A stretch of DNA of 64,000 nt from the NCBI GenBank assembly GCA_943842245.1, contig CALTAJ010000001.1:186001-250000 (forward strand). The letters are read 5' to 3'. The notes beneath the pieces were generated by a model. That model was not told the DNA's origin, did not search any database, and worked only from the letters and a program-made list of their open reading frames with translations. Shown here one piece after another: positions 158-14,732 of the stretch. The position numbers and the translations under genes were made by a program. Position 1 is the first letter of the stretch; each line of letters opens with the position of its first letter. This DNA comes from an uncultured Flavobacteriaceae bacterium. Its GTDB lineage: Bacteria; Bacteroidota; Bacteroidia; Flavobacteriales; Flavobacteriaceae.

Positions 158-163
158 TTGGTT

Positions 164-3100
164 ATGATGGAGATATTAAGAGAATATATATTTAGGCTTT
201 CAACATGGATAATGATTTTTTCTATTTTAAATTCTTTTTTTTCCTATTCTCAAAGTTCAACATATTCTACAACCCTAGAACTTGACGGATCATCTTCTTT
301 TATTGAAATACCTTCTTCAACAGATCTTAAATTTGATTCTGATAAATTTACTCTTGAAGCATGGATTAAAATTGAAAATGGCCCTTCGTCTAGTAGCACT
401 TATGGTGATTTTATTTTCAGAAAGAGAGATGATTGGAGTCTTGCAATTAAAAATATAGATGGATCACTCTTTTTAAGAGGTAGATTTAGAAGGGATAATC
501 GTGGTAATTGGCCAGAGGTTGTGTCATCACAATCAATTTCAACGGGCACTTGGTATCATATCGCATTTACTAATTCTGTATCAGATCAAAGGATAAGAAT
601 TTACATAAATGGAAGTCTTGACAAAGAAGAATCCTGGTCATCTGAAGGATATGGATTGACTTCATGGAATAATCAAGTTGGAGTTGGAGCGAGTATTTGG
701 AATGGAAGTGATAATCCGACTAATTTTTTTGACGGTGAAATCAGTGATGTACGCTTTTGGGATTCTGAAAGAACTCAATCGGAAATTAATAATTATAAAA
801 ATTCAACTCTCAATACAAATTCAACTCTTAAATTATATTACAAATTAAATGAAGGTCAAGGATCTACAGTAAATGACTTTAGTGGTAATTCAATAACAGG
901 TACCGCAAGAGGGAGTTATCAATGGAAAAGTGCTGGCCCCACCGTAACACTAACAGATACAGATTCTGATAATCTCATTAAAAATTCCGATGTAGTAAGT
1001 ATAACGGCTACGTTTAATGAGTCTATTGGAACGACAACACCAACAATTACAATTAAGGAAAATGACGAGCCAATTAACATGTACATAAGTGATGGTAACG
1101 GAAGTATCAGTCTACTTGTTCAGCATGGAGGCTTGGCTCCCATAACAAGAAATACAGCAGGTTTAGTGTCATATACATTTAAAAGCGTTTCATCAGGAGT
1201 TACATATACTTTGAACTCTTTAAATTATACAGGTCAAAGTTGGGTGAGTTTTAATACATCCCCAGAATATAACGAAGGAACAGGTAATAAAGATGTGGTT
1301 TTTTTGGGAAAAACAATAAAAGATAATGTTCAAATGACTGAAGTCTCTGGATCTTCTCCATCAAGAAGTGCCTGGAATTATAGCTGGACAGCATCAATAA
1401 CACTAAATACGGTAAGTGTTACTGTTTCTGGCACAAATCAGTCAGGAAATGCTTATGCAGGCACAGATAGTTTAACATTTAATGTAGACACTGTAGCTCC
1501 AATTTTAGAGCGGTTAAATCCTGATGAAGATACAACTTCTTTTAACGACGGAATTGTTAATAACTCTAATACCGTAACATTCACCGCTACCTTTTCAGAA
1601 AGTATGGGGGCAAGTCCCACGATAAATATAATAGGAATATCACCTCTTTCATATTCTCATTTATCTTCTATGACATTTGTAAGTACTGATGGCGATGGAG
1701 ATACAAATTGGTCTTATGGATGGGACGTCCCATCTTCATCATCTGTTACTACGGGAACCGTTTCAATTTCAATTACTGGCTCTGATATTGCTGGAAACGA
1801 GTATACAGGTTTATGGGAAGATGTTATTTTGGTTAGGGAACTTAGATTGTTTATTGATAACACCCCAGCACCAACAGTTACATTATCTCATACTGATGTT
1901 GATGAGGTTGTTTCTGGTTCAGAAGTGGTCACTATTACAGCTACTTTTAGTAAATCGATGGCAGAATCACCAACGATTAATATCGCAGGACAGGTTTCAA
2001 ATCAACCAATGACTACTGTAACTCCTACAATAAGAAGAATAGCCGATATAGGTATTTCTGATTATGGTTATGACATGATTGCTCTTGGTTCCAACAATTG
2101 GGCAACGATTCTAGGATCTTCATTTACTAATTCAGGACTTATAAGTCATACCCTAGAAATAAATGGGGTTGATTATTTTGTCCACTCCATTAGTTCTTCT
2201 GATAATGATTCAAGTAGCTACTGGTGGTATGTTAAAACAATTCCTGAATACACACCTGGATATAGTTTACCTTCATTTGAGAATGATATTGTAATTAAGT
2301 CGCCAAATTATGAACAAGATTCCAAAATATGGCAGTACACATGGACTGTATCACCTTCAACAAGTGGTGCTGTTTCTGTAACTGTTGCAGGGAAAGATTT
2401 TTCTGGAAAGTCTTATGCAGGGACAGATAGTGTAATTTTTAATGATCCTGCCCCTACCGTAAATCTTACTGATACAGATGCTAATAATATAGTTACCGGC
2501 TCAAATGTTGTAACCATAACAGCTACATTCAGTAAAGCGATGTCTGCAACTCCTACAATTAATATAACGGGTGAAGTTTCAAACATAGCTATGACTGCAT
2601 CTACTTCAGCAAGTGTATGGATCTACCCTTGGACTGTTTCCTCAACCACCAGTGGTATCGTTACAGCAACTGTTTCTGGTGCAGACATATCAGGAAAAGC
2701 CTACGCAGGTACTGACAGTATTACCTTTACTATTGATAATACTGCACCTACTGTAACCTTAACTAATACTGACTCAGATAATTTAGTTTCAGGCGCGAGT
2801 GTAGTGACTATCACGGCTACTTTTAGTGAGGCGATGTCTGCAACTCCTACAATTAATATAACGGGTGAAGTTTCAAACATAGCTATGACTGCATCTACTA
2901 CAGCAAGTGTATGGATCTACCCTTGGACTGTTTCCTCAACCACCAGTGGTATCGTTACAGCAACTGTTTCTGGTGCAGACATATCAGGAAAAGCCTACGC
3001 AGGTACTGACAGTATTACCTTTACTATTGATAATACTGCACCTACTGTAACCTTAACTAATACTGACTCAGATGATTTAGTTTCAGGCGCGAGTGTAGTG

Positions 3101-6100
3101 ACTATCACGGCTACTTTTAGTGAGGCGATGTCTGCAACTCCTACAATTAATATAACGGGTGAAGTTTCAAACATAGCTATGACTGCATCTACTACAGCAA
3201 GTGTATGGATCTACCCTTGGACTGTTTCCTCAACCACCAGTGGTATCGTTACAGCAACTGTTTCTGGTGCAGACATATCAGGAAAAGCCTACGCAGGTAC
3301 TGACAGTATTACCTTTACTATTGATAATACTGCACCTACTGTAACCTTAACTAATACTGACTCAGATAATTTAGTTTCAGGCGCGAGTGTAGTGACTATC
3401 ACGGCTACTTTTAGTGAGGCGATGTCTGCAACTCCTACAATTAATATAACGGGTGAAGTTTCAAACATAGCTATGACTGCATCTACTACAGCAAGTGTAT
3501 GGATCTACCCTTGGACTGTTTCCTCAACCACCAGTGGTATCGTTACAGCAACTGTTTCTGGTGCAGACATATCAGGAAAAGCCTACGCAGGTACTGACAG
3601 TATTACCTTTACTATTGATAATACAATTCCTCTGATGTCAGCTCCAACGATTTCATCAGATAATTTGACAGTAAGTATAACTCTCAGTGAAAGTGTTTTT
3701 ACAGAAATTATCAATGGCGTTGGATCAAATACGCTATTGACATCTGACTTTGAACTGTCTCTATCTGGAAACTCAAGTTTAACTCTTACATCATCATCGC
3801 CTTCAAGTATTTCTGAAAATGGAACAAATTATCAATTAGCAATTCCTTTTAATGGTTTTGCCAACGGAACAGAATCGTTAACCATAACAATCTCTAATAA
3901 TTCCATTTTTGACACTGCAGGGAATACGTTTAATTCATCCCAAACCATAGGATTAAATAATAATCTTTTGCTTTATTATGATTTTTCAAACCCTAATTCC
4001 TACAATGGTCAAACAACGACTTCTTCAAATCTTAGTGTAATTGATTTAAGCGGAAATAACAATAATGGTGAGATAAGAGACGAAGCAGATACTTACTATG
4101 ATCAATTTGAAGACGCTTTTTATTTTAATGGTGATCAAAAAAGAGCAAATAAAGGTGTTGCTATATCAAATCTAAATTATGTAAGTGGAAATTCTGATCA
4201 GATTAAAGAAATGACTCTTATTGCAAGAGTAAAAGCAAAATCTCAAACTTCGGGTGGAAATCAAGACGAAAGAATAATTATTTCTTTTGACAGGTCTAAT
4301 AATTTTAGATTTGGAATTGGGACTGATCAAATTAGTCAAGCACAAGGAAAACTTGCTTTTAGTTTCACAAATACAGATGCAACTAACGATACTTATGCCG
4401 TTTCTCAAACAATTGATTTGAGGGATGATAATTGGCATGATGTAGCCGTAACATTTAAAGCAAATGAAGTAGGTGGATTAAAATATTTTATTGATGGAGG
4501 ATTGGTTTATACTCACCCAGATTCGTTTAACCCGATATCCAATCAAGTAACAAGTCAAACTCCAAGGTTTGGTTATATCGGTAATGGAAGTGAAGCTTCA
4601 TCCTTTAAGGGTGCTACAGGTCCTGACAATCTATTTTATGGGTATATTCAAGTTATAAAATATTTCAATAAAACGTTACCAATAAATCAATTAAAACCAA
4701 TTGATTCAAGTCCACCAAATGTTACACTCACAGATACAGATACAGATAATATTGTAAGTGATTCAGATAATGTAATAATTACAGCAAGTTTTAATGAAGC
4801 TATGGCTTCAAGTCCTACTATAAATATTAGTAATATTGTAACTAATGCTTCTATGACCATTTCTTCAACAGCTGCTATATGGACATACTCCTGGGATGTC
4901 CCAAAACAATTTAATGGTCAGACTAAAGTAACCGTAGCCGGAACAGATATTTCTTCAAATGCCTATTCAGGAACTGATAGCATTACATTTAAAGATTCAA
5001 TTCCTCCAGAGATTTCTGCTACAGCAATAGAGGCTCAAAACAATTATGTTGATATAACCTTTGATCAACCCATATATGGAAATAATTCTGCCAGCTCTGG
5101 GATTATCTCAAGCTCGTTAAATGCAATACAAACATCTGGCACTAGCTTTACAATAGATTTTGTAGGTTTAAAAAAGAATGATGCAACTACTTTTTCATCT
5201 GCATCTGCTTTGACAGGTGGTGAAACTACAATTAGAGCGTTTATGGACTTTACAAGTATTTCTCCTTCAGGAGGAGAAGTTTATGCAATCACCGCTACAA
5301 GCTCTTCATCAGTATTTGATATTAATGGAAACGGTATGTTAACTATTCAGAGTAGTATTACTTTCATATTAAATGCACCTGTTTCAGGACCAGTTTCGTC
5401 AGACAAATCAATTCTCTCAATTACTCCAAATAATTTTATTGCTGATGGGCAGAAAATAGTTGTATTTACTGTTCAAGCTAAAGATAGTCTTGGTCAAAAC
5501 TTTACAAAAGGAGGGTCACAAATTAAAATATTTAATGGAGACTTAGATCTTAGCGTAATCGATAATTTAAATGGGACCTACACAGCAAGCTTCATTCCGA
5601 ATGAAATCTCTACTGACACAAAAAGTCTTGTTTTTAATTTTAGTGTGAATGATATAAACGCTTTAAGTAGTGGGAGTTTAATTTTATATTCTGATTCAGA
5701 CAAAGACGGCATTAATAATATAGTTGACGAATGTCCAATTACCAGTGAAGGATTTACAGTTGACGAAAAAGGGTGTGCATTATATCAATTGGACAGTGAT
5801 AAAGATGGTGTTACCGATGATATAGATCAATGTCCGGAGACTCTCCCCACACTAATACCACTACAAAATAACAACTTCTCTAACCCACAAACATTAGATA
5901 TAAGTAGCACTCTTTCCCTTCCATCCTCTTTTTCTAACAGTTTAGGACAGGATATGGCATTGAGTGTTGATGCAAAAGGTTGTGGACCTGACCAGAGAGA
6001 TATAGATGGTGATGAAATTGTTGACTCAAAAGATAATTGTCCTAAGGTTTTTAATCCAGATCAATCTGATAAAGATGGTGATGGCATAGGAGATTTGTGT

Positions 6101-8044
6101 GATACAAATAATCCAATTCCAGCTCTTCTAAATAATACAATAAATATAACTGAGTTTCCAATAAGTGGATCAAAGCTTGGAACGATAAGGGGATTCGATG
6201 AAGATGGTGATCAGCTTACTTTTTCTAATTTACCAGACGCTTTTAAAAGCGTTATTTCTCTGGATAATGAAGGCAATTTAACTGCAATGGATAATGCGCG
6301 CTTTTTAGCTTTTGATTCACCTCTAAATGGAGCTACTTTCAATTTTACTTTGAGTGATGGGGAAAATGAAATTGATCTATTTGTTGTAATTAAAATTTTA
6401 GAGGATCCTAGTCCTAAAATTTCAATTACAACTTATGATAATATTAATGAAGATACAGAAATAGGAACTGTTATTGGTATTGTAAATGCAGTTGATCCTC
6501 TTGGAGGAACACTGCAACTAAGCCTTTTAGGTGATGGATATTTAGAGTTATTTGAAAATGAAATTAGAACAATTAAAGAACTAGACTTTGAAGAAATTGA
6601 ATTTCATTCATTTAATATTGGAGCTACAAGTGCAGATTACAGCTCTTCTAAAGAAGGGGTTTTTAATGTAGTTGATATTCCAAATACCACTTTTGTAAGT
6701 AACTTTTTTATATCCATTTTTAGATCTCGTTTTGGAAATGGTAATTTTAAAACTTCGAAGGTTGATCACTCTAGATATTTTAATCCACATAATAAAAATG
6801 TGGGCAAATGGAAAGTAAAAAAGAAAATTAAAGGTGGTGCAGACGCAGATAAGTTTACCATAAAAACTAGAAATAATTCAGAACAAAAGCTCGAAGATCC
6901 TGTTATAGATGAAAATGAAGATTACTTAGCCTTTATTAAACCTCCAGATTATAATAACCCAGGGGATGCCAACAAAGATAATATCTATGAGGTTGAAATT
7001 GAGTACATAAATACAGCAGACGGAGAACCAGAAGTTCCTATCTCCGTAACTCAAACTAATATTCAGGTCCCAGAGGGAAGTAAAAAAGCAATAGAATTAC
7101 AATCATCCCCTGCATTACCAACAGATGACTCAGACTTTGATGGAGTTCCAGATATATATGATAATAGTCCTTTAGTTTCTAATCCTGATCAAGCTGATGA
7201 AGATGGAGACGGAGAGGGTGATGTTTCTGATGACTTTGATCACGATGGAGTTTGGAATCCATTTGATACCTGTCCAGATACTCCCCTTGGAGAATTAGTT
7301 GATATTAATGGATGTTTAATTTATTATTTACCCCCAAATAACTTTTCTATTTCTAAAACAGAGAAATGCGCTGGACAAAACAGTATAAACCTTTCAGTAG
7401 TCGATGAAACAATAACCTACAAAGTTTCAGTTAGTGGAGCTATAAATGCTTTAGAGACTTTTACAGGTAAAAACTGGACCTTAGATCGACTTTCTGCTGG
7501 AGTTTATAATATTTGTGTAAGTGTGGAAGGAGTTAATCCTTTAGAATTTCAACGTTGTTTTCAGGTTACTATTATAGAGCCAAGTCCCCTTGTGGTTACT
7601 AGCTTCTTAAGTAAAGTAAATCAGAGTGTAAGTTTTACATTAGAGGGTGGTGCAGCTTACCAAATAACTAACAATGGTAAAACAACCCAAATAAGCACTA
7701 GCAAGCATACTATTAACCTAGATAAAGGGATTAACAGTATATCAATATCAACGGGCATAGAGTGTCAAGGATTGTTTCTAGAGACTTATTTAAATTCATA
7801 TGAAGTTAAGTATACCCCAAATCCATTTAAAGAACAATTACAACTCTATATCGGTGGACAAGATAATATTATTGAAGTTGGTGTATATTCATCCAATGGC
7901 CAGTTAATTGACTATCAAAATATATCACTTCCTTTTGGAATTAGAAATTACACATTAGACACAGCCAAATATAAAACAGGAGTATATATTATTAATATTA
8001 AAGGAGCCACTGTTGATCAGTCTATTCAGGTTATCAAAGAATAA
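164..8044 (+). CDS. Giant T9SS-secreted multidomain adhesin (LamG, Ig-like, TSP3)
   Basis: About 2626 residues, probably a cell-surface or secreted adhesin. The first frame codon is a TTG at 158; ATG 164 (or 167) is preferred because it precedes a signal peptide ending around SYSQ near residue 30. Domains in order: LamG-like jelly roll (about 34-215), Ig-like repeats with the core [10 protein letters not shown]...[10 protein letters not shown] (about 260, 449, 570, four tandem copies at 763-1154, and one at 1520), a second LamG (about 1268-1510), an invasin-like domain (about 1750-1840), and Ca-binding thrombospondin type 3 repeats (about 1844-1983 and 2323-2375; [19 protein letters not shown]). 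A type A T9SS sorting domain (YTPNPF ... GVYIIN) closes the protein at about 2548-2626. Export through the type IX system follows from family knowledge. The ligand is unknown; LamG domains often bind glycans. It may be co-transcribed with the next gene (2-bp gap). Confidence 0.85.
2450..3625 (+). repeat. Four tandem 294-bp repeats (98 aa each) inside the adhesin
   Basis: Units start at 2450, 2744, 3038 and 3332, an exact 294-bp period encoding one Ig-like domain each. By eye, units 2 and 4 are identical. Unit 3 differs by one A-to-G (SDN becomes SDD). Unit 1 is diverged in its first 85 bp but nearly identical afterwards, apart from a TSAS/TTAS change. Identity extends through synonymous positions, so the array was duplicated or homogenised recently. 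Copy number may vary between strains and may be collapsed in short-read assemblies. Confidence 0.95.
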
Positions 8045-8991: not shown

Positions 8992-9807
8992 ATGAAAAAA
9001 ATAATTAATCTTTTAATCTTATCACTTTTAATATCCTGTAATACTTCCGTAAGAAATAGTAAAAAAGATGTTATTGAAAATTCATACTCTTTAATTTGGA
9101 GTGACGAATTTAACCAGAAAGATCTAAAAGTAGATTCTAGTAAGTGGTTTATGGAAACAATTGCTCCAAATAATGGGAGCTGGTATAATAATGAATTACA
9201 ACACTATACAGACCGAATAGATAATGCATTTGTAAGTGATGGCACACTCAAAATTATTGCTAAAAAAGAAAAATACACTCACTCTGGTACCACACAGGAT
9301 TATACTTCAGCGAGATTAAATTCCAAATTTTCCTTTACTTATGGAAAAGTTGAGGTTCGTGCTAAATTACCAAGTGCAAAGGGGAGTTGGCCTGCAATTT
9401 GGACTTTAGGGAGTAATCTAGAAACAGTAGGTTGGCCTGGTTGTGGAGAAATTGATATTATGGAGCAATTATTTGAAGACTTTGAAATGATTCAATGTGC
9501 TTTACATACTCCAGATACTCATGGTGACAATACTATTTTAAAGCAAGTTAATGTGACTAATGTTACACAAAATTTTCATGTTTACGGCATGGAATGGTCA
9601 GCTGAAAAAATAGATTTTTTTATAGATAATAATTATTATTTCACCTACCACCCAGAGTTAAAAACGCCTGGAAATTGGCCATATTTTAATGATCAATATA
9701 TACTTCTAAATATAGCTATGGGAGGAAGTCTCGGCGGCTCTATAGATCCTAATTATTATAAAGATCAAATGGAGGTAGATTACGTTCGTGTTTACCAAAA
9801 AAAATAA
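8992..9807 (+). CDS. GH16 beta-glucanase (laminarinase-type) lipoprotein
   Basis: A 271-residue glycoside hydrolase family 16 enzyme. These retaining hydrolases cut beta-1,3 or mixed beta-1,3/1,4 glucans such as laminarin, the main storage glucan of marine algae. The lipobox LLISC puts it on a membrane surface. The GH16 signature GEIDIME is present at 152-158, with nucleophile E153, helper D155 and acid/base E158. Other family features are WSDEF near the N terminus, GKVEVRAKLP, WPAIWTLG and the closing VDYVRVYQ. The length is that of a bare catalytic domain without a carbohydrate-binding module. No SusC/SusD pair lies nearby, so it is not in a classical PUL here. Laminarin specificity is inference; agarase-, carrageenase- or porphyranase-like activity is less likely. 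A near-consensus TACTTTCA lies at 8954-8961. Confidence 0.9.
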   Translation: MKKIINLLILSLLISCNTSVRNSKKDVIENSYSLIWSDEFNQKDLKVDSSKWFMETIAPNNGSWYNNELQHYTDRIDNAFVSDGTLKIIAKKEKYTHSGTTQDYTSARLNSKFSFTYGKVEVRAKLPSAKGSWPAIWTLGSNLETVGWPGCGEIDIMEQLFEDFEMIQCALHTPDTHGDNTILKQVNVTNVTQNFHVYGMEWSAEKIDFFIDNNYYFTYHPELKTPGNWPYFNDQYILLNIAMGGSLGGSIDPNYYKDQMEVDYVRVYQKK

Positions 9808-9948
9808 ATTTTAAGGTAATCTGAAAAAACAGCTACAATATTTAAGGATTTAGTCTTGTTTGTGCTATTAATTGATACAAGAAAAAAACTATATAAACAT
9901 AATTTTTTTAAAAATAAAAAATCCTTATTGTTTAACCATTACTTAAAA

Positions 9949-10365
9949 TCAGGGTTTAAAAAATTCTTCTTCTGTTATTCTAAAATAATTCTCCTTTTGA
10001 GAAGGATCAAAGAAAAAATTAAATTTGTGCTTATCTCCAAAATTTATAGTAGTTCTTTCAAAGTCTTCGAAAAAAAACTCTTTAGATTTAAACTGAACGT
10101 ATATTCTTGAAATTGGTAATTTATCAAAAATGAACTTTTCACGATTTCTAATATAGACATGTCTTACGTACTTTTTTCTCTGATCTCTTATAACAACAAT
10201 AATATCATGGTCAACTTCATTCACCAATTCCAAAGTGGCATTAGAAATCGAATTAGATACATCTTCTGGAAAGCGATTCTCAAAAGTTTTGTCACCAGTT
10301 CTTCCACGTTGGGAGAATAAAAGAGTTGAACTTAAAAATAATACTAATAAAGTTTTTTTATTCAT
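9949..10365 (-). CDS. Exported protein of unknown function
   Basis: A 138-residue protein with a clear signal peptide (MNKKTLLVLFLSSTLLFSQ). The mature part is beta-rich and charged: ATLELVNEVDHDIIVVIRD, YVRHVYIRNREKFIFDKLP, and a C-terminal segment rich in Phe, Lys and Glu. The pattern resembles small periplasmic beta-sandwich proteins such as DUF6759-like ones, but I do not recognise the family with confidence. It stands alone, convergent with the GH16 gene and divergent from the oxidoreductase gene. The overlapping + strand frame at 9856-10110 is low-complexity and is treated as a shadow. Confidence 0.6.
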   Translation of the reverse strand: MNKKTLLVLFLSSTLLFSQRGRTGDKTFENRFPEDVSNSISNATLELVNEVDHDIIVVIRDQRKKYVRHVYIRNREKFIFDKLPISRIYVQFKSKEFFFEDFERTTINFGDKHKFNFFFDPSQKENYFRITEEEFFKP

Positions 10366-10458
10366 AGGAAATTATTTCGTTTGATTTTAAGATTTAAAAC
10401 TCTTTATTTATTTCTGTAAAATTATATATCTTTATTTAATAACTATATAACTAAACAA

Positions 10459-11913
10459 ATGAAACGTAAAAAACATCACTCTAGACGTAATTTTATTAAA
10501 AAAAGTATCGCTGCTTCATCTATAATTATAGTACCTCGTAATGTCCTTGGTGGACAAGGATATATTTCTCCGAGTGACCAGCTTAATATAGCCGCTATTG
10601 GCTCTGGAGGAAAAGGGGCAAGTGATATAAGTAATGCTTCTGTTCGAGGTCGTGAACGTGTTATCTCCCTTTGTGATGTTGATTTTTCTGGAAGTGCCTC
10701 TAGAACAGTAAAGAAATTTCCAAAAGCCAAGCAATATGCTGATTACAGAATAATGTTGGATAAAGAAAAAGATATTGATGCAGTTACGATTTCTACTCCA
10801 GATCATGTTCACGGTCCCGCTGCTGCTTTTGCTATGGAAAGAGGAAAACATATTTATGTTCAAAAGCCAATGACTCACAACATAAGAGAAGCACGAATGT
10901 TAACTGAAATGGCTCGTAAACAAAAAGTAGTTACTCAAATGGGTAACCAAGGTGGATCAAATCCACTTCTAAATATGGTTCAAGACTGGATTGATAGTGG
11001 AAAAATTGGTGCTGTCTCTGATGTAAAAATCTGGACAAACCGTCCAGTATGGCCTCAAGGTGTTATGATGCCAAAATCTGACTCTAGTTTAAAACCTGAC
11101 GCACTAAACTGGGACTTATGGTTGGGACCAGCTAAAGAAAAACCTTACACACCTAACATGCATCCTTTCAGTTGGAGGGGATGGTGGGATTACGGAACTG
11201 GTGCTCTTGGTGATGTAGGATGTCATTTGATTGATATTCCTTTTCGTACTCTTGGATTAAAATATCCAACTGCTGCAGAATGTAGCGTCGGAAGTGTATT
11301 TTCAAAGATGTGGTCTCCTGATTACTTACCAGAAGGTTGTCCTCCTTCTTCTTTAATAACAATCAATTTTGATGCTACTGAAAAAAGTAAATCTCCTATT
11401 CAAATGACATGGAGCGATGGTGGTATTAGACCTCCACATCCAGAAATTATACCAGCAAATAGTGACATTGGTGGGAGAAATAGTGAAAATGGAGTATTGA
11501 TAATTGGAGAAAAAGGAATCATTTCAACCAATATTAATGACAGTTCTCCACTAATGCCAAAATTATATCTTAATGATGGTACTACAGATTTTGGTCCTGA
11601 AGTTGAAAAAATGACAGAACCAGAGTACGGGCATCAACGTAAGTGGGTTGATGCATGTAAAGCTGGATTTAATAGTGATGAACATCTTGGTTTAACTTCT
11701 TCATTTGACTACGCAGGACCCATGACAGAAACTGTACTAATGGGAAATTTAGCAATTAGAAGCTATATGCTTAGAGAGGACAAAGGAAATGGTCGAATGG
11801 ATTACTTCGCTCGAAAGAAATTATTGTGGGATGGAGATAATATGAAGATCACAAACTTAGAGGCTGCAAATCAATTTGTTACAAGAGATTATCGTGAAGG
11901 TTTTAAAATTTAA
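10459..11913 (+). CDS. Tat-exported Gfo/Idh/MocA family oxidoreductase
   Basis: A 484-residue NAD(P)-dependent sugar dehydrogenase family protein. The N terminus carries a twin-arginine signal (HSRRNFIKKS, then a hydrophobic stretch), so the folded, cofactor-loaded enzyme should go to the periplasm. A Rossmann-type loop IAAIGSGGKGASD sits at about 43-55. The usual EKP catalytic motif reads QKP at about 135-137 (YVQKPMTHN), a variant common in the exported bacteroidotal subfamily. The C-terminal GFO/IDH half contains GALGDVGCHLIDIPF. In characterised Bacteroidota pathways such proteins oxidise the C3 hydroxyl of glycosides, and the product is cleaved by DUF1080-type enzymes; a DUF1080 gene lies at 13736-14539. 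Substrate not predictable. A near-consensus promoter (TATCTTTA) is at 10427-10434 and a strong terminator follows the gene. Confidence 0.88.
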   Translation: MKRKKHHSRRNFIKKSIAASSIIIVPRNVLGGQGYISPSDQLNIAAIGSGGKGASDISNASVRGRERVISLCDVDFSGSASRTVKKFPKAKQYADYRIMLDKEKDIDAVTISTPDHVHGPAAAFAMERGKHIYVQKPMTHNIREARMLTEMARKQKVVTQMGNQGGSNPLLNMVQDWIDSGKIGAVSDVKIWTNRPVWPQGVMMPKSDSSLKPDALNWDLWLGPAKEKPYTPNMHPFSWRGWWDYGTGALGDVGCHLIDIPFRTLGLKYPTAAECSVGSVFSKMWSPDYLPEGCPPSSLITINFDATEKSKSPIQMTWSDGGIRPPHPEIIPANSDIGGRNSENGVLIIGEKGIISTNINDSSPLMPKLYLNDGTTDFGPEVEKMTEPEYGHQRKWVDACKAGFNSDEHLGLTSSFDYAGPMTETVLMGNLAIRSYMLREDKGNGRMDYFARKKLLWDGDNMKITNLEAANQFVTRDYREGFKI

Positions 11914-11934
11914 TCTCAAACAAATGTTCTTTAT

Positions 11935-11964
11935 AAATCCCGCTATTTTGAGTGGGATTTTTTT
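11935..11964 (+). terminator. Rho-independent terminator after the oxidoreductase gene
   Basis: AAATCCC (11935-11941) pairs with GGGATTT (11954-11960). The stem extends inward by a G-U, a C-G and a U-A pair around the loop ATTTTG and runs into seven T residues. It separates the oxidoreductase transcript from the helicase gene. Confidence 0.8.
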
Positions 11965-12025
11965 GTCCCCTTTTTGATCAAATAAAATAAAGCTTAAAAA
12001 GACCTGAAAGCGCATAGAATTAAAT

Positions 12026-12033
12026 TACTTTTG
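12026..12033 (+). promoter_or_regulatory. Predicted -7 box TACTTTTG for the helicase gene
   Basis: An exact match to the Bacteroidota -7 consensus TAnnTTTG, 17 nt before the helicase ATG and downstream of a terminator. The expected -33 region (around 12003) reads CCTG, so it is weak or absent. Confidence 0.5.
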
Positions 12034-12050
12034 CACCCAGAATAATATTT

Positions 12051-13733
12051 ATGATAACTTTTAAGTCCCTAGGACTCAATGCTCAACTATTAAAAGCCGT
12101 TGAAAATCTAGGATTTGAATCTCCAACAGAGGTTCAACACAAAGTAATTCCAATACTTTTAGAAAATAATACAGATTTAGTCGCTTTAGCTCAAACTGGT
12201 ACGGGTAAGACAGCAGCTTTTGGATTTCCTATCTTGCAGAAAATAAATACTGAAAATCGAAATACTCAAGGTCTAATCATATCCCCTACTCGTGAATTGT
12301 GCCTGCAAATTACTAATGATATGTCTACCTATGGTCAAGGACTAAAAAACCTAAATATAGTTGCTATTTATGGCGGAGCAAGCATTACAGAACAAGCAAA
12401 AAAAATAAAACGTGGTGCTCAGATTATTGTTGCAACTCCAGGACGTCTTAAAGACATGATAAAACGTAAAATGGTTAATATTAGATCCATTGAATATTGT
12501 GTTCTTGATGAGGCAGATGAGATGCTCAATATGGGGTTTTATGAAGACATTAAGGATATTTTAAAGAATACTCCAAACGATAAGGACTCATGGCTCTTTT
12601 CAGCTACGATGCCACCAGAAGTTAATGTCATTGCTAAAAAATTCATGCACGATCCTAAAGAAATTACAGTAGGAACAAAAAATTCTAGTGCCAAAAATAT
12701 TTCTCATCAGTATTATATTGTTGGAGCAAGGGAGCGATATAGTGCCTTAAGAGCTGTAATAAGTTTGAATACTGATATTTTTGGGTGTGTTTTCTGTAGA
12801 ACGAAAATTGAAACTCAAAAAGTCGCTGATAAATTAATCAAAGATGGTTATAAAGCAGCTGCTATCCACGGAGACTTAAGCCAAAATCAAAGAGATGCAG
12901 TTATGCAATCCTTCCGTAAGAAAAAAATTCAGCTTCTAATTGCTACAGACGTTGCAGCTCGTGGAATTGATGTGGATGATATTACACATGTAATTAATTA
13001 TCAACTACCTGACGAAATTGAAATTTACACTCACAGAAGCGGAAGAACAGGAAGGGCAGGAAAACAAGGAACCTCTGTAATATTTATAACTAAATCTGAT
13101 CAAAGAAAAATTCGAATGATTGAGAATAAGTTACAAATAAAACTAGCTAAACAAGAGATGCCTTCTAATGAAACAATCTTCAGTAATAAAGTTACTCACT
13201 GGATAAATCAAATAAAAAATACACCCGTAAAAAGTGATTTAAACAATTATTTTTCAGATGCAATCGAATCTTTAAAAGATATCGATAAGGAAACTCTAAT
13301 CGAATTAATTCTTTCACATGAATTTAAAAACTTTGACTTCAACCCTAAATTAAATGATTCTAGAGAACGAAATGTAGAACAAAGAGTCAATTTTGATCGT
13401 TCTGATAGAAAAATAAATGCCCCTCAAGATAAAGATCGTTTCTTTATAAATGTTGGGGCTCGTGACCAATACGAATGGCAGACTCTAAAAGACTTCTTAC
13501 GTTCTTTTCTGAAATTAGGTCAGGAAGATGTTTTTCAAGTTGAAGTCATGAAAAACTTTTCCTTTTTCTCAACTCATAAAAATCACAGAGATCTTGTACT
13601 AAAATCATTTGACAACCTTATCATGGACGAAAGAAAAGTGAATGTAGAGCTTACAAAAAAAGGGAAAACATACTCTCCAAAATCAAGATCAAAAAAGAAA
13701 AAAAGTGGGTTTAAAAAGAAAAAATTCAGATAA
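12051..13733 (+). CDS. DEAD-box ATP-dependent RNA helicase (CsdA/DeaD-like)
   Basis: A 560-residue RNA helicase likely acting in ribosome assembly, RNA turnover or cold adaptation. All core motifs are visible: Q motif (GFESPTEVQ), Walker A AQTGTGKT near 47-54, PTRELCLQ, ATPGRLKD, DEAD near 153, SATMP near 185, and in domain 2 the ARGIDVDDITHVINY and HRSGRTGRAG segments. A DbpA-type RNA-binding domain spans about 440-530, and the protein ends in a strongly basic tail (KKKKSGFKKKKFR) typical of bacteroidotal DeaD homologues. The gene has its own promoter and lies convergent with the DUF1080 gene, with only 2 bp between stop codons. Confidence 0.93.
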   Translation: MITFKSLGLNAQLLKAVENLGFESPTEVQHKVIPILLENNTDLVALAQTGTGKTAAFGFPILQKINTENRNTQGLIISPTRELCLQITNDMSTYGQGLKNLNIVAIYGGASITEQAKKIKRGAQIIVATPGRLKDMIKRKMVNIRSIEYCVLDEADEMLNMGFYEDIKDILKNTPNDKDSWLFSATMPPEVNVIAKKFMHDPKEITVGTKNSSAKNISHQYYIVGARERYSALRAVISLNTDIFGCVFCRTKIETQKVADKLIKDGYKAAAIHGDLSQNQRDAVMQSFRKKKIQLLIATDVAARGIDVDDITHVINYQLPDEIEIYTHRSGRTGRAGKQGTSVIFITKSDQRKIRMIENKLQIKLAKQEMPSNETIFSNKVTHWINQIKNTPVKSDLNNYFSDAIESLKDIDKETLIELILSHEFKNFDFNPKLNDSRERNVEQRVNFDRSDRKINAPQDKDRFFINVGARDQYEWQTLKDFLRSFLKLGQEDVFQVEVMKNFSFFSTHKNHRDLVLKSFDNLIMDERKVNVELTKKGKTYSPKSRSKKKKSGFKKKKFR

Positions 13734-13735
13734 CC

Positions 13736-14539
13736 CTATAACTTACGCATCCAAATATTTCGATAAGAAACTTTACCATCACCGTGATCTTGTAATAATA
13801 GTGACCGATGAGTTCCACCCTTTTGTCCGTCCAATGGGAATGAATCTTTATGAGTTTCATGCATTCCAATAAAACTTGTAGTTCCAAGGATTTTAGTCTT
13901 ATTGTGAATTAAAATTCCATTATGAAAAATTGTGAAAGTACCTGATTTTATCTGGATTCCTTCATCATCATACTTTGGTTCATTAAACACAATATCATAA
14001 ACCTGCCATTCTCCTGGAGGGCGGGAAGCATTTACTAATGGCATATTCTGTTTATATATTGATCCAGCCTGTCCATTTGAATAGGTCTTATTTTTATAAC
14101 TATCTAAAACCTGAACCTCATATCTCCTTTGAAAATAAATTCCACTATTTCCCCTTCCTTGTCCTTCTCCAGTAACAATTTTTGGGGTTTTCCATTCTAT
14201 ATGTAATTGAATCGAACCATGTTCAAATTTAGTTTCAATACTTCCAGATCCAAGATTAACCGTCATAGACTTATCGTCATTTAGAATCCATTCAACAGGT
14301 TTTTTGGAAACTGAATGATGCCATTTGGAAAGATCGGTTCCATCAAACAGAATTATTGCATCATTAGGTGGAGAGCCGAAAATTCCGGATTTTACTATGG
14401 TCGGTTCAGGATCCCAAACTTCATTATTTTTCGCAATAGTTAAATAATTTGCTACAATTGAATCGTATCTTTTCTTGTCAACATTTTTTTGAGAGAAGAC
14501 GAATTGAATTAAAAACAGAAAAATTATGAAATATTTCAT
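13736..14539 (-). CDS. Exported DUF1080 (3-keto-disaccharide/glycoside hydrolase family)
   Basis: A 267-residue protein with a signal peptide (FLIQFVFSQ) and one DUF1080 jelly-roll domain. Typical family strings are AIILFDGTDLSKW near 64-76, GSIQLHIEWKTP, GRGNSGIYFQRRYEVQVLDS near 140, YKQNMPLVNASRPPGEWQ, and a closing SYRNIWMRK. Members act on 3-keto-glucosides in periplasmic pathways whose first step is a Gfo/Idh/MocA dehydrogenase; such a gene lies 1.8 kb away on the other strand. Some members are reported as lyases rather than hydrolases, so the exact reaction is not certain. No lipobox is visible, so a soluble periplasmic location is likely. Confidence 0.87.
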   Translation of the reverse strand: MKYFIIFLFLIQFVFSQKNVDKKRYDSIVANYLTIAKNNEVWDPEPTIVKSGIFGSPPNDAIILFDGTDLSKWHHSVSKKPVEWILNDDKSMTVNLGSGSIETKFEHGSIQLHIEWKTPKIVTGEGQGRGNSGIYFQRRYEVQVLDSYKNKTYSNGQAGSIYKQNMPLVNASRPPGEWQVYDIVFNEPKYDDEGIQIKSGTFTIFHNGILIHNKTKILGTTSFIGMHETHKDSFPLDGQKGGTHRSLLLQDHGDGKVSYRNIWMRKL

Positions 14540-14630: not shown

Positions 14631-14732
14631 GTGTTTTTTAACAAAGAAGCAAATGGTAAAAATAAAAATCTTTTAAAAAAGCCTTTTCAAGACTATTCCG
14701 AATCAACATTAACTCCAAAAATTGAAGTTTAA
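14631..14732 (+). CDS. Possible 33-residue ORF or gene remnant
   Basis: A GTG-initiated frame encodes 33 residues ending in QDYSESTLTPKIEV and overlaps the end of hisS by 4 nt on the opposite strand. Its composition looks protein-like rather than random. An exact TATTTTTG box lies at 14624-14631, but it overlaps the only plausible start, so this promoter could not drive the whole frame. It may be a decayed gene tail, a very small protein or chance. No family is recognised. Confidence 0.2.
   Translation: MFFNKEANGKNKNLLKKPFQDYSESTLTPKIEV

Follow-up and report, generated by a model that had tools for sequence, protein, structure and literature searches.

Can a marine flavobacterium split glycosides by oxidizing a sugar at C3 and then expelling the aglycone, and which genes would it use? 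The question is raised by a window of 64,000 nucleotides (positions 186,001 to 250,000 of contig CALTAJ010000001.1, assembly GCA_943842245.1, from an uncultured Flavobacteriaceae bacterium), in which genes for a GH16 glucanase, an exported Gfo/Idh/MocA oxidoreductase (Gfo) and an exported DUF1080 protein lie close together. An earlier note on this DNA had joined the three by function into a 3-keto glycan route, with GH16 as the supplier of oligosaccharides.

Layout of the locus

All three genes were found where the note had placed them (Table 1). A single GH16-Gfo-DUF1080 transcript does not fit the layout, as the note had also concluded: the strands differ, and a terminator-like hairpin and T-run follow the Gfo stop codon. 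The helicase gene separates Gfo from DUF1080, and the gene for a 138-aa protein, with orthologues at 21 of 31 relative loci fetched, separates GH16 from Gfo. Gfo and DUF1080 are separate transcription units, and the pair looks linked by function, not as one operon. Since the two genes are convergent and adjoin a hisS-ribosomal protein-priA block, their adjacency may be passive synteny. Most relatives have a fatty-acid-hydroxylase gene at the place of the remnant listed last in Table 1 (PF04116 in a relative's copy).

Table 1. Features of the locus, in window coordinates
Feature	Position	Strand	Basis
GH16 beta-glucanase, lipoprotein-like, laminarinase-like	8992..9807	+	PF00722; best PDB match 4bq1
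138-aa protein, apparently exported, frequent Gfo neighbor	9949..10365	-	no Pfam/NCBIfam match at E 0.001
Gfo/Idh/MocA oxidoreductase with Tat-type export, BT2158-like; candidate periplasmic glycoside 3-dehydrogenase	10459..11913	+	PF01408, PF19051
Terminator-like hairpin and T-run right after Gfo	11935..11960	+	consensus match
DEAD-box RNA helicase (CshA/DbpA-like), outside the proposed route	12051..13733	+	Pfam and NCBIfam matches
Exported DUF1080 protein (PF06439), 4qhz-type clade, candidate 3-keto-glycoside eliminase/hydratase	13736..14539	-	Pfam, model, tree
Probable fatty-acid-hydroxylase gene remnant, 30 aa, 53%	14631..14720	+	tblastn E 1e-5

The oxidoreductase and the DUF1080 protein

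The Gfo protein has 484 aa (PF01408, E 5e-16) and carries at its N terminus the twin-arginine motif SRRNFIKK, read by eye. A twin arginine is present in 28 of the 29 aligned main-Gfo rows, the window's own included (the exception, G032, is missing its N terminus), and the genome has one TatC match, in keeping with the Tat signal noted earlier. The best PDB sequence matches are 8tdf (E 1e-90) and 8tdh (E 7e-88), and likeness to BT2158, which is described as a periplasmic glycoside 3-dehydrogenase (PMC11300592), spans the length of the protein. Since it scores 443 bits against the NCBIfam model NF058561 (BT_2158_fam), for which the curated cut-off is 750, we call it BT2158-like rather than a member of that family; with a gene above the cut-off it shares 39% identity (188 of 487 columns). 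The same model has 15 matches in this genome, none of which reaches the cut-off. Since at E 0.001 it also matches 11 of 14 control genomes, with none above the cut-off, these 15 are mostly general Gfo proteins. Judged by its sequence, the window Gfo is a likely candidate for a glycoside C3-dehydrogenase, resembling a characterized periplasmic enzyme.

The protein has QKP where EKP is usual, which could mark a dead or odd Gfo. This reading was dropped because QKP is present in all 29 main-Gfo rows, the window's own included, and in each of five BT2158-like copies listed, although EKP is found in an above-cut-off BT_2158 member.

The DUF1080 protein (267 aa, with a Sec-type signal read by eye) matches PF06439 at E 2e-33, scoring 116.5 bits over residues 61-265 against a gathering cut-off of 26.8. 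Its structure was modeled from 47 sequences (pLDDT 90), and an earlier model from 14 sequences (pLDDT 66) was set aside. The model gives Z 32.1 to 4qhz and has the same fold as the 3-keto-glycoside eliminase/hydratases 8tda (Z 17.5), 8rr2 and 9fbe (Z 19.3); together with 8v31, these structures span Z 17.5-19.3 and rmsd 2.9-3.8 over 178-186 residues. Rows outside the DUF1080 family, which include GH16, CBM66 and lectins, score Z 12.5 or less, and the top 14 rows are higher. Foldseek TM-scores are 0.53-0.55 to the eliminase/hydratases versus 0.77 to 4qhz.

The tree sets the 4qhz-type clade, to which the window protein belongs, apart from the BT2157 type with support of 100/100 and a branch length of 4.33. 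The protein falls outside the BT2157 clade, formed by DUF1080 proteins whose genes immediately adjoin BT_2158 genes. It is 23% identical to a BT2157-type protein, and profile A1 reaches 8tda only at E 2e-4. What, then, do the two branches share? His252 is present in all 47 rows of the 4qhz-type clade, and the equivalent histidine in 10 of 10 of the BT2157-type set. When residues are numbered backward from the C terminus of BT2157 (chain 3osd; the protein is given as 290 aa in PMC11003636), H275 falls on the histidine of the QDH motif, which equals His252 here. A Bacteroides thetaiotaomicron lyase with H275N, which we infer to be BT2157, is described as hydration deficient (PMC13273386), and His252 thus corresponds to its hydration histidine. 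PMC9007349 calls BT2157 a 3-ketotrehalose hydrolase of the DUF1080 type, and a figure in PMC9765024 shows putative active-site residues of the family.

In the open-access papers searched, nothing turned up on what 4qhz-type DUF1080 proteins do, nor on the present pair in marine flavobacteria; for the branch, the search gave one solved structure and no assay.

Gene neighbors in the genus and beyond

Among 37 genomes of the genus (own included), which are related and in many cases incomplete, Gfo and DUF1080 orthologues occur together in 27, Gfo alone in 2, DUF1080 alone in 1 and neither in 7. A lack of co-occurrence, which the earlier note had named as evidence against the pair, is therefore not what the genus displays. 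The two genes also stay adjacent in the six relatives in which the helicase gene between them is missing. In 18 of the 29 relatives opened, it is another exported Gfo (Gfo2) that precedes DUF1080 on the same strand, and the window Gfo is a convergent neighbor. Since the best match to Gfo2 in the window's genome is at 31%, no orthologue was found there. Because the main Gfo remains at the locus without DUF1080 in G007, G008 and G025, synteny alone could explain the pair. A BT2158-like Gfo gene precedes the DUF1080 orthologue on its own strand in two relatives, by 66 bases in G003 and by 38 in G007, and in G003 a GMC gene and a gluconate-DH-subunit-3 gene also lie beside the orthologue. The pairing specific to this window is weaker than the 3-keto route itself.

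A DUF1080 gene decaying after the loss of Gfo2 is not supported: of 78 columns without variation across the other 13 aligned DUF1080 orthologues, just 3 are changed (P51S, S59N and Q212H), and none of these lies inside motifs common to the BT2157 set.

Of the nine DUF1080 genes in the window's genome, five (the window's among them) have a Gfo-type match no more than 5 kb away, which exceeds chance: the mean under random placement is 0.65, and 5 of 20,000 draws reach five, a figure that ignores shared ancestry and incomplete assemblies. For this permutation, 11 DUF1080 matches were merged to 9 genes and 15 Gfo-type matches to 14.

What company does the 4qhz-type clade keep elsewhere? We examined 58 loci, namely the best 80 minus 22 that were placed in the genus on their arrangement or identity; the set leans toward close relatives and includes near-identical pairs, and in one locus (L195) no DUF1080 ORF was recognized. 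Among these 58 of the best 80, a Gfo gene is present in 17 (2.0 expected), a GMC gene in 8 (0.5 expected) and an AP_endonuc_2-type TIM barrel in 17 (1.2 expected), the expectations coming from gene densities in 30 of the 58 genomes, hand-chosen and non-random. All three partners are absent from the flank examined in 31 of the 58. When four loci whose DUF1080 falls inside the genus clade of the tree (L138, L142, L145 and L146) are removed, Gfo is present in 16, GMC in 8, the TIM barrel in 17 and any of them in 26 of 54. These counts use longest-ORF calls and home-made HMMs. For plasmids, three GC-rich loci were counted by deposited annotation and two unannotated loci by HMMs alone. GMC and gluconate-DH-subunit-3 genes lie near a window-type DUF1080 in 7 of the 14 plasmid regions opened, all seven from Proteobacteria; three further regions have a Gfo and four have neither Gfo nor GMC, one of these four with an annotated PQQ sugar dehydrogenase. 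Near six below-cut-off BT2158-like Gfo genes from other Bacteroidota, no DUF1080 was detected. Since the fold and histidine are joined by candidate C3-dehydrogenase neighbors above the density expectation, a 3-keto-glycoside route is likely.

A proposed route, its rivals and known systems

Putting these computed families, fold, conserved histidine and neighborhoods together, we favor, at a probability of roughly 0.6, the reading that DUF1080 is a periplasmic 3-keto-glycoside eliminase/hydratase that serves exported C3-dehydrogenases, the window Gfo among them, with Gfo2 probably lost and GH16 a neighbor to which no role is assigned. Gfo would be exported folded through Tat with its nicotinamide cofactor bound, and would oxidize C3 of the non-reducing sugar in a small glycoside, perhaps a substrate common to both proteins. 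DUF1080 would then expel the aglycone, giving a 2-hydroxy-3-keto-glucal, and add water to yield the 3-keto sugar, making it a net hydrolase. This Gfo or a different one could then reduce the 3-keto sugar again, in a putative cofactor cycle, or the sugar could be taken up. The older dedicated partner of DUF1080, Gfo2, was probably once present in the window's clade and has since disappeared, so that DUF1080 would have to be served in trans. The 3-keto chemistry of the earlier note is supported in part, by the likeness of Gfo to a glycoside 3-dehydrogenase and by the fold and key histidine of DUF1080; its simple partnership is qualified by the placement of DUF1080 outside the BT2157 clade and by Gfo2. 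Against the favored reading, no activity is reported for any 4qhz-type member in the literature examined, and a very long branch separates the clade from the BT2157 type.

If DUF1080 acts on 3-keto glycosides, which dehydrogenase supplies them? We consider it rather doubtful that the supplier is instead a GMC and gluconate-DH-subunit-3 pair or another Gfo, the window Gfo being a synteny neighbor with another substrate. Such a pair (PF05199 and Gluconate_2-dh3) is present on another contig of the genome (G000:C2, near 526-528 kb), and the GMC neighbors in plasmids and in the 58 loci, the three relatives in which Gfo persists without DUF1080 and the place of Gfo2 as the usual same-strand partner all fit this explanation; the co-occurrence of Gfo with DUF1080 in most of the genus, and their adjacency where the helicase is missing, argue against it. 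Less probable still is that DUF1080 needs no oxidized substrate and works as a polysaccharide hydrolase or carbohydrate-binding protein. A Thermogutta PF06439/DUF1080 protein is reported as an endo-xanthanase/lichenase (PMC9007349), xanthan cleavage is proposed for DUF1080 proteins (PMC5673643), the fold extends at lower Z to GH16, CBM66 and lectins, and more than half of the 58 loci (from the best 80) have neither dehydrogenase nor TIM-barrel neighbor. However, Z to the 3-keto eliminase/hydratases is well above that to those other folds, the hydration histidine is invariant and dehydrogenase neighbors exceed expectation.

Does GH16 feed the route? The protein has 271 aa and matches PF00722 at E 1e-22; it shows the ExDxxE catalytic motif of a laminarinase (EIDIMEQ, residue 153) and, as read by eye, a lipobox-like LLISC. 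Its best PDB match is an endo-1,3-beta-glucanase, and laminarin is a putative substrate. Export-type N termini on all three proteins and the closeness of the genes favor the full scheme of the earlier note, in which GH16 cuts laminarin and Gfo and DUF1080 finish the oligosaccharides, but we regard it as very improbable. GH16 is at the locus in the window's genome and in 4 of 29 relatives, a count limited by contig ends. Across the 37 genus genomes (G353 left out), its presence gives Fisher P 0.26 with DUF1080 and 0.43 with Gfo, figures that ignore shared ancestry and incomplete assemblies, and G027 (54% complete) and G036 have GH16 without an orthologue of either. The genome also has four GH3 matches, which would fit an ordinary laminarin route. 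Moreover, inside a beta-1,3-glucan the C3 hydroxyl of each residue is taken up by the linkage, and C3 oxidation is possible only at the non-reducing end. On grounds of gene content, position and chemistry, we reject GH16 as a member of the unit; it is probably a bystander.

If the favored reading is true, widespread surface-ocean flavobacteria (MS024-2A is one genus listed in the NS5 marine group; PMC9122927) split some glycosides by an oxidation-elimination route alongside ordinary hydrolysis, and the usual glycoside-hydrolase counts would overlook such breakdown. The reading also offers a testable function for the large 4qhz-type DUF1080 branch. More tentatively, this branch may be a second, separately evolved, general-purpose eliminase/hydratase that swaps among BT2158-like Gfo, Gfo2 and flavin GMC-LacB partners, and a streamlined marine lineage may have lost the dedicated partner and kept a lyase that works in trans for any exported dehydrogenase.

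How does the locus compare with known systems? By sequence, the DUF1080 protein is of the same type as Parabacteroides distasonis BDI_3914 (PDB 4qhz; 45% identity, the highest Z above), for which the entry title gives only "putative glycosyl hydrolase." The Agrobacterium OGE/HYD system is similar in its order of C3 oxidation, beta-elimination, hydration and Gfo reduction, the last two steps being described from preliminary evidence; it differs in that the eliminase is of a Mn TIM-barrel type, a flavin dehydrogenase oxidizes C3 and Gfo is the reductase (PMC10628242). LacABC with DUF1080 is described as the lactose 3-dehydrogenase pathway of Caulobacter (PMC9007349). The GMC and subunit-3 neighbors of the window-type clade recall it, but Pfam scans of the window ORFs up to 6 kb from DUF1080 found no such gene. 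Like BT2157-BT2158 of B. thetaiotaomicron, the window encodes an exported Gfo/Idh/MocA protein of similar length with a twin-arginine start and a DUF1080 partner that shares the fold and the hydration histidine. Unlike that pair, its Gfo is below the family cut-off and its DUF1080 is in another clade; and whereas 9 of 14 above-cut-off BT_2158 loci opened (of 15) have DUF1080 immediately after Gfo on the same strand, the window genes converge across a helicase. Oxidation-elimination routes of this kind are already known, and the present one would be another example, in a marine flavobacterium.

The locus and its oxidoreductase

ORF calling and Pfam/NCBIfam scans bore out the earlier note's claim that genes for a GH16 enzyme, an exported Gfo/Idh/MocA protein (the main Gfo) and an exported DUF1080 protein lie together here. 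ORF calls and domain scans of the window place a 138-aa unknown protein and a DEAD-box helicase between them and, next along, hisS, a DUF6495 gene, the genes for ribosomal proteins L9, S18 and S6, and priA. The Gfo stop codon is directly followed by a terminator-like hairpin with a T-run. The 138-aa protein, apparently exported and a frequent neighbor of the Gfo gene, had no match in Pfam or NCBIfam scans; it is 60–75% identical across 18 aligned relatives, with NEVDHDIIV and RHVYIRN invariant. A 2628-aa protein carries LamG domains, a thrombospondin type 3 repeat, a C-terminal sorting domain and, judged by eye, repeated Ig-like units.

Features of the locus and of related loci
Feature	Sequence	Coordinates	Strand	Basis
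2628-aa protein	window	158-8044	+	
GH16	window	8992-9807	+	ORF calling, Pfam/NCBIfam scans
138-aa protein	window	9949-10365	-	
Gfo/Idh/MocA protein, exported	window	10459-11913	+	ORF calling, Pfam/NCBIfam scans
DUF1080 protein, exported	window	13736-14539	-	ORF calling, Pfam/NCBIfam scans
Paralogue cluster (L121)	own genome, G000:C2	~520-540 kb		
Six-gene cassette	G012, L098	6779-11712		
Inositol-catabolism-like row	G003, L089	488-10928		
Gfo-DUF1080-Gfo row	P. distasonis element, L266	4645-12663		

The closest solved structures to the main Gfo are 8tdf (E 1e-90) and 8tdh (E 7e-88), and it gives a 39% end-to-end alignment with a Bacteroidota protein above the cut-off of BT_2158_fam (NF058561). 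As its own score against this model is 443, below the cut-off of 750, we call it BT2158-like rather than a member. According to PMC11300592, BT2158 acts in the periplasm as a glycoside 3-dehydrogenase, and growth on trehalose, leucrose and palatinose depends on it. Of 29 main-Gfo rows, 28 begin with a twin-arginine motif and the other is truncated by a contig end; the window's own genome contains a TatC match.

The DUF1080 protein

A tree built from 101 DUF1080 proteins places the window protein in an 80-row group (support 100/100). A branch of length 4.33 separates this group from one of 21 rows, to which belong all nine DUF1080 genes that immediately follow an above-cut-off BT_2158 gene. Of five other own-genome proteins in the tree, which leaves out three own genes, four lie on this BT2157 side and one (L119) in the 80-row group, a placement that is unsure because its branch is 6.28. 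Identity between the window protein and a BT2157-type protein is 23%; profile-profile alignment of the two types gave a probability of 99%, with LFDG, NSG, E-Q-LD, QDH and RNI common to both. The predicted structure (mean pLDDT 90) matches 4qhz, from Parabacteroides distasonis BDI_3914, with Z 32.1 (Foldseek TM-score 0.77), and the 3-keto-glycoside eliminase/hydratases 9fbe, 8v31, 8rr2 and 8tda with Z 19.3, 18.2, 17.9 and 17.5 (TM-scores 0.53–0.55), against a top Z of 12.5 outside the DUF1080 family.

An H275N variant of a B. thetaiotaomicron lyase, which we infer to be BT2157, is reported to be deficient in hydration (PMC13273386). Counting on a BT2157 length of 290 (PMC11003636), and assuming that the chain ends at the native C terminus, the QDH histidine is position 275. 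It corresponds to His252 of the window protein, conserved in 47/47 clade members and 10/10 of the BT2157-type set.

Neighborhoods within and beyond the genus

Is the pairing conserved in relatives, as the earlier note proposed to check? The search covered 60 genomes, 37 of them from the genus with the window's own counted in, and 31 loci from 29 relatives were examined. The main Gfo and DUF1080 genes are convergent on one contig in 25 genomes, own included: 18 have only the helicase between the two genes, one has a six-gene cassette there as well, and six have no helicase there. Within the genus, 27 genomes have both genes, two only Gfo, one only DUF1080 and seven neither (P = 3e-5, ignoring relatedness and missing contigs). 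However, since the pair borders a conserved housekeeping block, this co-location may be inherited synteny.

A different exported Gfo, Gfo2 (160 bits against BT_2158_fam for the one protein tested), lies directly upstream of DUF1080 on the same strand in 18 relatives, from a 26-base overlap to 94 bases apart by our start calls. Scored solely in loci opened, 18 genomes have both, one only Gfo2 (G025), 10 only DUF1080 and eight neither (P = 0.008); both genes are missing from the G008 locus and from the Gfo-bearing locus of G007. DUF1080 is present without an intact Gfo2 in the window and seven relatives. At the Gfo2 place in G030 a 75-aa Gfo-like trace is left; of the fatty-acid-hydroxylase gene, next along from Gfo2 in relatives, the window retains a trace of 30 aa. 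A search of the own genome for a Gfo2 orthologue turned up none (best match 31%). A BT2158-like Gfo instead precedes DUF1080 in G003 (66 bases) and G007 (38 bases), and the G003 locus also has a GMC and gluconate-DH-subunit-3 pair downstream. Because DUF1080 and a Gfo2-like gene (52–53%) adjoin in reversed order at three loci outside the genus arrangement (L151, L152, L169), the association looks older than the genus.

The G012 cassette, between helicase and DUF1080, encodes two short-chain dehydrogenases, an FAA hydrolase, an amidohydrolase, an MFS transporter and a RhaM-type mutarotase, together resembling an L-fucose- or L-rhamnose-type oxidative pathway. In G003 a row of genes resembling inositol catabolism (IolG, at 422.8 bits against a cut-off of 355, with a PfkB kinase, a TPP enzyme and a TIM barrel) precedes DUF1080 and the BT2158-like Gfo, which hints at inositol glycosides as substrate.

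Of the best 80 DUF1080 loci, 22 assigned to the genus were set aside. Among the other 58, flanks contain Gfo in 17 (2.0 expected from gene densities), GMC oxidoreductase in eight (0.5) and an AP_endonuc_2-type TIM barrel in 17 (1.2); 27 have at least one and 31 none of the three. A 30-locus version gave 15 (1.4), seven (0.35) and 14 (0.8). Plasmids supplied 20 matching records, of which 14 of 15 listed were examined. Seven have GMC plus subunit-3 within a 12-kb stretch, by annotation (Xanthomonas, Palleronia, Paracoccus, Catenovulum pCadTS8_1, Sphingomonas) or by HMMs made for this analysis (Novosphingobium, Halomonas); three have Gfo (the P. distasonis element, Hymenobacter, Haladaptatus) and four neither; among these four, Natronococcus is annotated with a PQQ-dependent sugar dehydrogenase. 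For the 11 plasmid DUF1080 proteins readable by HMM, the window-clade model gives 198–282 bits and the BT2157-type model no more than 49. On the P. distasonis element, the Gfo-DUF1080-Gfo row continues with a TonB receptor and RagB/SusD, a PUL-like setting for a window-type DUF1080.

Above-cut-off BT_2158 loci number 15 in 296 genomes; in the 14 opened, DUF1080 is directly downstream in nine, two genes away in one and undetected in four. As it was not detected near any of six below-cut-off loci opened, BT2158-like genes below the cut-off do not generally keep company with DUF1080.

The own genome (2.08 Mb, 4 contigs, ~90% complete) has 11 PF06439 matches, merged to nine genes, and 15 BT_2158 model matches, merged to 14; none of the 15 reaches the cut-off, and at the E-value used 11 of 14 control genomes also gave matches, to general Gfo proteins. 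Five of the nine DUF1080 genes have a Gfo match no more than 5 kb away (0.65 expected). Elsewhere in this genome, cluster L121 includes a paralogue of the main Gfo (66–68% identity), another exported-type Gfo, a Tat-type TIM-barrel protein, a GMC and gluconate-DH-subunit-3 pair and genes of sugar-acid catabolic look, a candidate 3-keto module more complete than the window's.

GH16, the proposed route and known systems

The earlier note suggested that GH16 could supply oligosaccharides for a route run by the other two proteins. A GH16 orthologue (at least 70% identity, one partial) occurs in 15 of 38 genus genomes; its presence is associated neither with that of DUF1080 (P = 0.26) nor with that of Gfo (P = 0.43). 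It lies near Gfo in the own genome and four relatives (G002, G010, G019, G028) and on a different contig in eight genomes, although a few near cases may be hidden because some of those assemblies are fragmented. In relatives with GH16 at the locus, an esterase-type gene and the 138-aa gene, and in some also a peptidase or transporter gene, intervene before Gfo; other relatives have a sulfatase nearby, and these neighbors single out no clear substrate. Since C3 of internal beta-1,3-glucan residues lies in the linkage, a C3-dehydrogenase could attack solely the non-reducing end. The own genome has four GH3 matches; GH16_3 and GH3 are described as conserved in NS5_D (PMC9122927), which from that source would be the MS024-2A genus.

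Taken together, the presence patterns, the few co-located relatives and the C3 chemistry make a GH16 link unlikely. In the remainder of the proposed 3-keto route, family, fold, histidine and neighborhoods make a 3-keto-glycoside role likely for the DUF1080 protein; such a role is plausible for the main Gfo, and it is possible that the two act on one substrate. Of interest are the window-type DUF1080 branch and its apparently lost dedicated partner.

The type of route is already known from other systems. For lactose use, LacABC-type dehydrogenases are reported to be encoded near DUF1080 (PMC9007349). The Agrobacterium system, described as comprising a flavin dehydrogenase, a TIM-barrel-type eliminase, a putative hydratase and a Gfo reductase, is a route of the same kind (PMC10628242).
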